Source of the DNA: Methanosarcina flavescens
GTDB taxonomy: Archaea > Halobacteriota > Methanosarcinia > Methanosarcinales > Methanosarcinaceae
Direction of reading: 5' to 3'
Assembly: GCF_001304615.2 (NCBI RefSeq)
Contig: NZ_CP032683.1
Location: forward strand, 496,001 to 560,000
DNA: 64,000 bases
Both the position numbers and the translations under genes were made by a program. How positions within the stretch are numbered: the stretch's first letter is position 1; each line of letters begins with the position of its first letter. The notes below the pieces were generated by a model. The model searched no databases and was not told where the DNA came from. It saw nothing but the letters and a program-made list of their open reading frames with translations. This document shows, in pieces, positions 57,049-60,578 of this stretch.

Positions 57049-57122
57049 TGGGCCCGCTGAGATTCGAACTCAGGATCCCCGCCGTGTAAAGGCGATGTCA
57101 TGACCGACTAGACCACGAGCCC
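57049..57122 (-). tRNA. tRNA-Val (TAC)
   Basis: Minus-strand cloverleaf: acceptor GGGCTCG/CGGGCCC with discriminator A, anticodon stem TCGCC/GGCGG around loop TTTACAC (anticodon TAC), T-arm CTGAG-TTCGAAT-CTCAG. CCA is not encoded. Confidence 0.94.
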
Positions 57123-57610
57123 ATTTTGCATACATTTGCAGAATTGCCCTAAATGCAAGACCAAAATGTCACTAGTTATATATATCTTTTTTGTTAGAAG
57201 AGAGCTTCAGAGCTTATCTGAGAAACAATTACCGCAAAAAATTAGACATCTAATCTTTTGATAAAATTCTTGTTGCGCTAAGTGAGACTGTTGTCTCACT
57301 GAATGAAAAGCTCTTACTACAATAAGTGAGACTCTTACTGCATCAAGCTCCCTTCACACACCATAAAAAAAATATTTATTCCTTAGGATAAAACATTTGC
57401 CACTCTAACCAATACTCCTGTTATATAAGAAATCATATACATCAACCTCAGTACCTGCTTCTTTTATACATAGGAAAGATGAAAAGCTGGAATTAAGCAT
57501 ACCTGCCTTCAAGAACTCAGACAATTCAAAATACAGACAGGCCGGAAGATTGTTATGGACGGATAAAACCGTAAGGCAAAAGTATTTATAGCAGATTAGC
57601 GTGTTGTAAT
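57123..57610. other. Gap with a hairpin before the first sRNA candidate
   Basis: AGTGAGAC-TGTT-GTCTCACT at 57281-57300 is a perfect 8-bp hairpin; AGTGAGACT recurs at about 57323. TATTTATA at 57583-57590 is the likely TATA box of the sRNA candidate. No protein gene is seen. Confidence 0.5.
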
Positions 57611-57690
57611 TTGTGAGCGGGTCTCTCTTTTAGATAACCCCAACCCCAACACCCCCAATTCATACTTCCCAACCCGCTCATTCTATTCTA
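57611..57690 (+). ncRNA. Candidate C-rich small RNA, copy 1
   Basis: A TATA box (TATTTATA, 57583-57590) is followed about 25 bases later by TGAGCGGG (57614-57621), which pairs with CCCGCTCA (57673-57680). The 51-base loop contains TCTCTCTTTTAGATAACCCC and AACACCCCCAATT, C-runs with no G to pair, and a T-rich tail follows. Copy 2 at 58280 has the same stem, the same start of loop and the same CCCC runs. No open frame fits. C-rich loops are complementary to Shine-Dalgarno G-runs, as in known Methanosarcina sRNAs that mask ribosome-binding sites. Confidence 0.62.
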
Positions 57691-58275
57691 AACGGAATCG
57701 AAACATATATTTAGATTTTAATTTCAGGTTTTAATTCTGCCTTTTTGTAGGAAGAAGCGCAAAACCCCTGAGTCTTTAGCTTAGGGGATATAAACGTCAA
57801 CTTCCAAACGGTTAACAGTTAATAATTATTTATATTATTAGATCCCTTCAAACGTTTGTAATATTAGATTTTGCTGTCACCACAAACTCATAGTTCTTAA
57901 GAATGTTGCCGAATATCAAAGCGAAAATCAAACGAGGTAACGTTTGAATATCTGGAAGTTGGATAACATGGCGGGAATCGCCCTGAAGGGATCGGGATTA
58001 AGCCGTGGAAAGGCGGTAGCTATAAGCATCTAGTATATCACGCTCATATTCTGTTTCACCTGCGGTAAGTGGGATAGAGCCTGCGCGACTTGTCTCCAAT
58101 GGAAGGAAAGATGACTCAGGAGGCCACTCAGTATTTATCTGAGTGATAGTTCACATAGTTTAATCCCAAGAAGTAAACTCTGATTTAAAGAGATGAGTCA
58201 GGACATATAAACTAGAAATTATAAAAAACGAAAGATAAAATGAAAAACTATTTATATTATGAATAGCTATTCATG
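57691..58275. other. Unexplained region between the sRNA candidates, possible IS200/IS605-like remnant
   Basis: A hairpin CCCCTGAG/CTTAGGGG (57767-57789) resembles subterminal hairpins of IS200/IS605 elements. 57960-58145 is richer in GC than the flanks and includes a hairpin CACTCAG-TATTTAT-CTGAGTG at 58125-58145 and a frame reading SVSPAVSGIEPARLVSNG then KDDSGGHSVFI to a stop. It may be a transposase relic with its RNA end, or a structured RNA. I cannot decide. Confidence 0.35.
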
Positions 58276-58279
58276 TCGA

Positions 58280-58380
58280 GTGAGCGGGTCTCTTTTCCAT
58301 AGTATAACCCCAAACCCATATCCCCCAACTATTCCCCCAACTATTCCCCAAACTCTTCAACCCGCTCACAACTTTTCTTT
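58280..58380 (+). ncRNA. Candidate C-rich small RNA, copy 2
   Basis: TATA-like TATTTATATT (58249-58258) lies about 25 bases upstream. GTGAGCGGG (58280-58288) pairs over nine bases with CCCGCTCAC (58361-58369), enclosing a 72-base loop with TCTCTTTTCC, ATAACCCCAAACCC and two copies of CCCCCAACTATT. It ends in a T-rich tract. It is clearly homologous to copy 1 at 57611, with a longer loop because of the extra CCCCCAACTATT unit. No protein is encoded. Confidence 0.65.
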
Positions 58381-58658: not shown

Positions 58659-60563
58659 TTAGAAGTCGAAAAGCGTTTTTTGCGTTTTCGACCCGGTTTT
58701 TTTAGGAGCTTCGCTGGCCTCTGCCTCAGGATTTCCAGGTTTGTCAGGAGCGTTTTTGATAACGGGCTTACAGTTCACAGGTTCCTTCGGCTTTGAAAGT
58801 TCAGTAGAGTTAACGCTTTCTATACGTTCAGGAACAGGGAAGGTTTCACTCTCAAAGGACTCAGGCAGGGAGGAAACACTCCGAAGATTATCAGGCTTAG
58901 GGTTGCCTGACTTAAGACTGTTAGGTATAAACCCGATTCCACCAACCTCTTCCTGAGACTTCTCCAGGTTTAGGGAATCTGAAGTAAAACTGTCAGGTAA
59001 AAGTGTGCCTGAGGTAAAACTATAAGGAATAATGGCACCAGAATTTTTATTTCTCGAATTTGTTATTTCCTGGGAGGTTTCCGGCGAAATAGCGAAGCCA
59101 AAATTAAGGGTTTTTTGCCCTCCCTGGGAAGTTTTTGAATCGGATTCATCAGATTCTTCAGAAGATTTCCTGGTTTTCTCATCAGCGGTATTAAATGCAC
59201 AGTCAGAAGGCATCTCTTTATTCTCGATAGAAGGAGAAGGATTCCAAAACTCCGCATCATTAGATTGCCCTTTTCCTTCAAGAAGGAGTTCCTGCGCCCT
59301 GTCGTAAATTTTCTGTATCTTTTTGCTGGCTTTTGTGCTCCCCGAGAGATATATTAATTCTTCAAGTTCAAGTCCCAGTCTTGCAGTAATTTCAATCGCA
59401 GATTCTTCCCCCTTTAACATGCGAGAGTAAAGCTCAAACAGGTTGTTTCTGGAATAACGCATGGACTCGAAGCTGTGTTCTCCAATTTTAGAAGCTATAT
59501 TATCCCTTAGATCTCGTCTCGATCGTATCTGCCCCATCCTTCTCCACAGAGAAGGAGACTGATACTTGATAAATCCGGGATAGGGTTTTGTCTTTGAGAT
59601 TGCAGCTCCGCAGACCATCAGCATGCTTGCATATCTCCACATGCCGTAGTTCTGGCGTTTTTTCACGCGCCCAAGGTAGAGATCAGCCCTGGAAAGATAA
59701 CCGAAGCCAGCTCTTATATCTCCCAGATCCCCGTCATTAGAAGCATACTGGGCAGGCAGGTTTTCATCAATCCAGTGTATAAGGTCTTCAGGGCTCTCAT
59801 CAAGCCCGCGAGCAGCTTCCAGGGCTTTTTTACAGTCTGTGCTCTTAAAAATTCTCTGCATTACCTTGAAGATGTTTTCCTTGACATCCCTGCTTGAAGT
59901 GCTGATATCCTCGACTTCCAGCACTTCCCTCCCACTTGCTGCAGCCTGAAGGTCATTGATTGCGCTTCTGAGGTCGCCTCCTGCGTTTTCAGCAATTTGC
60001 TGGATTGCATCCGGACTGCATAAAATTCCTTCGCTTTCACATACCTTCTTCAAAGCAGGAACCATAGAACGGCTCTGTACTGATCCAAACTTTATTTCCT
60101 GACAGAGGTTCCGGATAGTAGGAGTCAGTCCATAAACATCGTTTACAATCAGCATTATAGGTTGCAACGTACTCTTTATAATCCCTGCAATAGCCCGCAT
60201 TCCACCCCTGTCTGCAGTCCCGTGAAGATTGTCCGCTTCATCCAGAATTATCAGGCGTTTTCCTCCAAAGAGGGTATTCATTGAAGCTGCCGATCCCGCA
60301 ACTTTCTCGATAACCCCTGCAGTTCTCTGGTCGCTTGCATTGAGCTCAATTACTTCCCAACCCATATCGTGGGCAAGAGCATGGGCAGTAGAGGTTTTCC
60401 CTACCCCTGCAGGTCCCTGAAGGATTACTGCTCTTTTCTCGGGAATGCCTGGAAGCCACTTCTCAGCCCAGGTTCGCAAATCCTTCACCGCCTTCTTATT
60501 CCCCACGATCTCCTTCAGGGTCTGGGGGCGGTATTTTTCAGCCCATTCAATCACCAGTGTCAT
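58659..60563 (-). CDS. rfcL: Replication factor C large subunit
   Basis: 634-residue large subunit of the sliding-clamp loader. [20 protein letters not shown] at the N-terminus, Walker [10 protein letters not shown], Walker [11 protein letters not shown], and the AAA+ lid follow; residues 380 onward contain the collar helices and a long, low-complexity, acidic tail. The C-terminus TQKTLFDF is a PCNA-interacting (PIP) motif. A second PIP-like QKTLNFGF lies in the tail about 120 residues earlier. The tail also has repeats of PDSF/PESF/PNSL. ATG at 60563 is used since it matches the family start; in-frame TTG at 60578 would add five residues. Confidence 0.93.
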
Positions 60564-60578
60564 CTTAAACCATACCAA

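Follow-up and report, generated by a model that had tools for sequence, protein, structure and literature searches.

Two C-rich hairpins of Methanosarcina flavescens as members of a putative class-wide family of small RNAs

Archaeal small RNAs (sRNAs) are usually described at the level of a genus. In Methanosarcina mazei, sRNA41 has been reported to mask ribosome-binding sites (RBSs) within the polycistronic mRNAs of acetyl-CoA decarbonylase/synthase (ACDS) (PMC5867862, PMC6560208), and loop 2 of sRNA154 to mask the RBS of glnA2 (PMC5867862). In bacteria, Listeria LhrC, a set of multicopy UCCC-motif sRNAs (PMC4132741), and the UCCC-motif sRNAs of Staphylococcus come in several homologous copies with C-rich single-stranded motifs that are thought to bind Shine-Dalgarno (SD) regions, while rhizobial anti-SD sRNAs with CCUCCUCCC, such as NfeR1 (PMC10746234), direct an unpaired C-rich loop toward RBSs. 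Here we describe two homologous hairpins with C-rich loops, copies 1 and 2, in a 64,000-nucleotide stretch of Methanosarcina flavescens (contig NZ_CP032683.1, positions 496,001 to 560,000; hereafter the window), which very likely belong to a transcribed, structured sRNA family found throughout the class, a judgement that rests on conservation.

The hairpins resemble each of these systems in part. sRNA154 and sRNA162 of M. mazei are likewise Methanosarcina sRNAs acting on mRNAs, but they have been reported as individual regulators, and the published descriptions consulted assign them no multi-copy, C-rich, single-hairpin architecture. The Listeria and Staphylococcus sRNAs are bacterial and unrelated in sequence, carry UCCC rather than CCCCCACUCCCC, and use another type of promoter and terminator; the rhizobial CCUCCUCCC is an anti-SD sequence, unlike the archaeal core CCCCCACUCCCC, whose pairing with GGAGGUGAU is weak.

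Two adjacent hairpins of common design

A first-pass annotation of the window had proposed two homologous hairpins with a shared TATA box, stem and C-rich loop, and all of these can be read directly at the following positions:

57583..57590, plus strand: TATA box of copy 1 (TATTTATA), ending 22 nt upstream of the stem
57613..57681, plus strand: predicted sRNA copy 1; terminal stem 57613-57621 / 57673-57681; loop U-rich, then C-rich, with hardly any G
58249..58256, plus strand: TATA box of copy 2 (TATTTATA), ending 23 nt upstream of the stem
58260..58273, no strand assigned: perfect palindrome TGAATAGCTATTCA, candidate operator, between the TATA box and the predicted transcription start of copy 2
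58280..58369, plus strand: predicted sRNA copy 2; terminal stem 58280-58288 / 58361-58369; loop segment TCTCTTTTCCATAGTATAACCCC, then C-runs
58322..58345, plus strand: tandem CCCCCAACTATT units in the loop of copy 2, two in the window

Both copies are closed by the same stem, GUGAGCGGG/CCCGCUCA(C/U), around a long, C-rich and almost G-free loop. The stems, first put at 8 and 9 bp, measure 9 bp each (GTGAGCGGG ... CCCGCTCAT in copy 1, with a terminal G-U, and GTGAGCGGG ... CCCGCTCAC in copy 2), each with an inner U-A pair added, and the starts lie 667 rather than 670 bp apart. The loops begin with TCTCTCTTTT in copy 1 and TCTCTTTTCC in copy 2; the extra unit ascribed to copy 2 corresponds to its tandem repeat, while the T-rich tail ascribed to both is clear in copy 2 and weak in copy 1. 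The predicted fold of each copy is a single closing stem around an open loop, and none of 200 dinucleotide-shuffled sequences was as stable (z = -4.0 for copy 1 and -5.4 for copy 2).

A blastn search with copy 1 in the home genome, a single contig of 3.28 Mb in which the stretches sampled total 464 kb, window included, retrieved copy 2 (E = 7e-5). The same locus is present in named Methanosarcina genomes; copy 2, searched by blast in 40 relatives, was present in most genomes of the genus, and its loop segment TCTCTTTTCCATAGTATAACCCC is almost invariant across most of them. Synteny is likewise kept, the two copies being adjacent in most genomes at a distance of about 0.2-0.7 kb. The promoter is held at a fixed distance: for copy 1, TTTATA begins 28 nt before the stem at 16 of 17 Methanosarcina loci and 27 nt before it at the remaining one, and for copy 2 it begins 29-30 nt before the stem at all 22 loci. 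Since the TATA boxes in the window end 22-23 nt before the stem, transcription would be expected to begin on the first stem base or very close to it.

The palindromic character of 58260..58273 is mostly retained in copy 2 orthologues with letters that differ between clades, and the element may therefore be a repressor operator. In one genome (G016, L012 1415-1574) copy 2 has grown to 160 nt through multiplication of the CCCCCAACTATT unit. In one clade (L020, L021, L022, L024, L048 and L049) copy 2 is followed by a third, divergent paralogue in tandem, which has the stem GTGAGCGGA/TCCGCTCAC, a compensatory change from G-C to A-U, and mostly lacks the U-run.

A family spread over the class

A covariance model of 25 sequences and 9 pairs (R1) matched 212 of the 238 genomes of the class, 147 of the 151 of good quality and 35 of the 39 genera, and 166 of the 186 genomes of the order, with 1 to 14 copies per genome; class, order and phylum are throughout those of Methanosarcina, to which the window belongs. 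In an even sample of the phylum nearly all matches fell within the class, those outside being weak (E ~2e-4) and confined to four genomes of one family, and this near absence serves as a negative control for C-richness alone. Copies 1 and 2 score 59.6 bits (E 1e-11) and 73.6 bits (E 2e-15), partly by construction because both are among the training sequences, although blastn had linked them independently beforehand.

The stem is supported by covariation. An initial count in a Methanosarcina-rich alignment (A1) gave no information, the stem being almost constant there; the signal came from 40 distinct class-wide pairs of stem arms, in which 94% of cells pair and two-sided compensatory changes occur in 7 of the 10 stem pairs. 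Such changes fill 30 cells against 7.4 expected from shuffles, none of 500 shuffles reaches this value, and slid controls collapse. C makes up 42.5% of the loops and G 2.7%, and at least four consecutive U occur in 104 of 108; a TATA element is found in 96 of 107 upstream regions, with a mode at -28 to -30. Fixed-distance promoters, class-wide conservation and compensatory stem changes together bear out the first-pass proposal of an sRNA family, but not of a family of two, as the home genome holds at least four members and the class hundreds. A stem lacking such changes was what the first-pass annotation had named as refuting evidence, and this test leaves its proposal standing.

The class-wide loop core consists of a U-run followed by CCCCCACUCCCC, is nearly invariant outside Methanosarcina, and is present in one to three units per loop, with further multiplication of C-rich units in G016. 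Its exact form, CCCCCACUCYCC, was not used to define the family, because only 52 of the 108 members have it, for the most part members other than copies 1 and 2, which lack it and arrange their C-runs otherwise.

Model R1 finds four members in the home genome. The third, reached by blast with copy 1, lies on the minus strand at G000:C1:876636-876712 (the 876.6-kb member); it retains about 89% or higher identity in most Methanosarcina genomes, and its counterpart in the relative G008 is at C1:737021-737093. Its relatives beyond the family, elsewhere in the order, follow a common plan of GUGAGCGGG stem, U-run, AACUAACCCCCACUCCCCAA and stem. An outer stem lengthens its hairpin, and its TATA box lies correspondingly further upstream. 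The fourth has a different stem, ACGGGCGAG/CTCGCTCGT.

At the gathering cut-off, the search with Rfam 15 covariance models matched no family, only tRNAs passing, and the sole sub-threshold match was a chance one to MIR528 (22 bits against a cut-off of 62). The family is an unusually old, previously uncatalogued, multi-copy family of small RNAs. Some of its members may already be among the 242 sRNAs that sequencing is reported to have detected in M. mazei in total (PMC5867862).

Ribosome-binding sites and other possible partners

We suggest that copies 1 and 2 are paralogues in a multi-copy, trans-acting sRNA family of the whole class, each copy probably being transcribed from its own TATA promoter with a start at or a few bases from the stem. 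As sequence, conservation and covariation show, a stem of 9-10 bp closes each hairpin end to end and holds a loop of 30-140 nt single-stranded, which, being nearly G-free, cannot fold on itself; the U-run could plausibly be bound by an archaeal Sm-like protein, and the C-rich tracts would most likely pair, in a number of mRNAs, with G-rich RBSs or the regions around the start, and lower translation. Stem and core would be family-wide, while paralogue-specific segments, UCUCUUUUCCAUAGUAUAACCCC in copy 2 and CAUACCAUACCCC in the 876.6-kb member, would choose the targets. We put this mechanism as a whole, and likewise base pairing with RBSs as the main action, at a probability of about 0.5.

All loops hybridise best at positions -20 to 0 of start codons, copies 1 and 2 with a mean of about -6.9 kcal/mol there versus about -5 kcal/mol at -40 to -20. 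Better-than-shuffled pairing with specific sites was seen only for the 876.6-kb member; in three genomes an ACDS operon is found some 20-25 kb away from it. In each of the five ACDS operons examined, its loop beats most dinucleotide-shuffled loops at the RBSs of a cooC-like gene and of cdhE (p = 0-0.07, varying with window and operon), the cooC-like site pairing as GGGGUAU...CUGUG against CACAUACCAUACCCC. This member resembles sRNA41 in genus, intergenic position and complementarity to two ACDS RBSs, and one family member may be sRNA41 itself; copies 1 and 2 differ in occupying other genome positions, and the likeness is to sRNA41 (Buddeweg et al. 2018) as described in two reviews (PMC5867862, PMC6560208). 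The pairing points to a possible link between sRNA control and acetate metabolism.

Several observations weigh against action on RBSs: (i) real loops hybridise to ribosome-binding regions no better than reversed ones, composition alone being enough to explain the global effect; (ii) the class-wide core pairs weakly with the SD sequence (-6.7 to -6.9 kcal/mol) and, reaching p<=0.01 in 2 of 339 genes, shows no enrichment against shuffles; (iii) no conserved, near-perfect target of copy 2 emerged, real and reversed patterns matching about equally in the home genome, and a near-complement of its invariant segment yielding no target common to all of 14 Methanosarcina genomes; (iv) a near-invariant core across a class better suits one conserved partner than many changing mRNAs; and (v) the ACDS p-values are modest and depend on the window, and the five operons are homologous and hence not independent, which makes that pairing suggestive only. 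One copy 2 match coincides with the start of a small, Cys-rich protein of 100 aa, in the home genome and in G016 (GGGGGUAAAUUAUGGAAGAGAA, -26.4 kcal/mol) and is indistinguishable from chance. A pure anti-SD reading of the core was rejected for its weak pairing and lack of enrichment. The first-pass annotation attributed GGGG and GGAGG sites to many genes; GGGG is present in only about 9-14% and GGAG in 19-30% of the ribosome-binding regions sampled. Its proposal of action on RBSs, favoured by the position of best hybridisation and by the ACDS pairing and weakened by the reversed loops, is thus plausible only.

A near-invariant core, 1-14 copies per genome and repeated motif units, more C-rich ones in G016, would also be expected of decoys that titrate a protein, by the logic of CsrB and RsmY: stem and repeated CCCCCACUCCCC would bind and sequester one conserved protein with affinity for C/U-rich RNA. 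Multiplied units and redundancy are typical of decoy RNAs, and the loops show no order-specific tuning to RBSs. We nevertheless consider a decoy function doubtful, as to our knowledge no candidate protein is known, and as copies 1 and 2 lack the exact core yet are strongly conserved, with invariant segments of their own, which looks like target choice.

It is unlikely that the family serves a few specific partner RNAs, such as a G-rich sRNA or a 5' untranslated region with GGGGAGUGGGG, rather than RBSs generally. The core and its perfect complement would form a 12-bp duplex of -30 kcal/mol, and only two exact GGGGAGTGGGG sites exist in the home genome outside the family, one of them intergenic (G000:C1:3279627); with up to one mismatch allowed, however, the motif outnumbers its reversed control only about twofold (34 versus 17), a count that includes the known members. 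The intergenic site (L207, minus strand) carries a G-rich GGGGAGTGGGGTGTGGGG, the exact complement of most of the core, and is a possible sponge or target.

Leaderless micro-open reading frames, with a GTG at the transcription start opening a peptide VSGSLF..., are very improbable. The first codons, VSGSLF, are shared here, and M. mazei sRNA154 is reported to carry a leaderless small open reading frame (PMC11456600), but the stem explains the conserved letters, many copies run into a stop after 6-8 codons while the frame of the others diverges, and member lengths are not multiples of 3, orthologues falling in all three classes modulo 3, which argues against coding; this reading was rejected on the frame evidence. 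An element acting as DNA (operator, terminator or mobile inverted repeat) is just as improbable, for although the inner stem sequence is nearly invariant, like a protein site, the two-sided compensatory changes, members with different stems, fixed one-strand promoter spacing, strand-asymmetric G-free loop and conserved synteny all speak for RNA.

Extending the proposed action on RBSs, we tentatively suggest that a single family, ancestral to this class of methane producers and methane oxidisers and retained in 1-14 copies throughout its history, could be a global regulator of translation, in which stem and U-run form a chaperone platform, CCCCCACUCCCC contacts one conserved partner, and paralogue segments choose mRNAs, those of ACDS included. 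Multi-copy, absent from Rfam, and kept with promoters and compensatory changes in nearly every genome of a class, such a family would rank with the most widely conserved regulatory RNAs of archaea, the universal ones aside. Defined loci, a covariance model and, in methanogens open to genetics, predicted targets make its function testable.

Related hairpins and surroundings of the locus

Five members of family f4 that were read (L076, L082, L083, L084 and L174) carry CCCACCTC(C) just after the stem, an anti-SD tail by its likeness to the 16S rRNA 3' end, which would favour action on RBSs. Two further hairpins of the home genome, found by their C-rich loops, have an unrelated stem of the GGCAUCUG/CAGAUGCC type, with a U-run followed by a C-run and the ending AACUCCCC. 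They lie at L210 1420-1545 and L230 1430-1560 (G000:C1 ~261.8 and 2779.3 kb), share the stem GGCATCTG/CAGATGCC with a TATA-like element upstream of each, and appear to form a sister family with another stem.

In the window, copies 1 and 2 are flanked by a tRNA gene (57049-57122, minus strand) and a minus-strand gene (58659-60578) that, from its sequence, looks like the large subunit of replication factor C. Between the copies, a 60-bp stretch (57742-57804) containing CCCCTGAGTCTTTAGCTTAGGGG matches, at about 88%, gene-unannotated DNA of two plasmids, one from Methanosarcina barkeri and one from Methanomethylovorans, and may be the end of a decayed IS200/IS605-type element.
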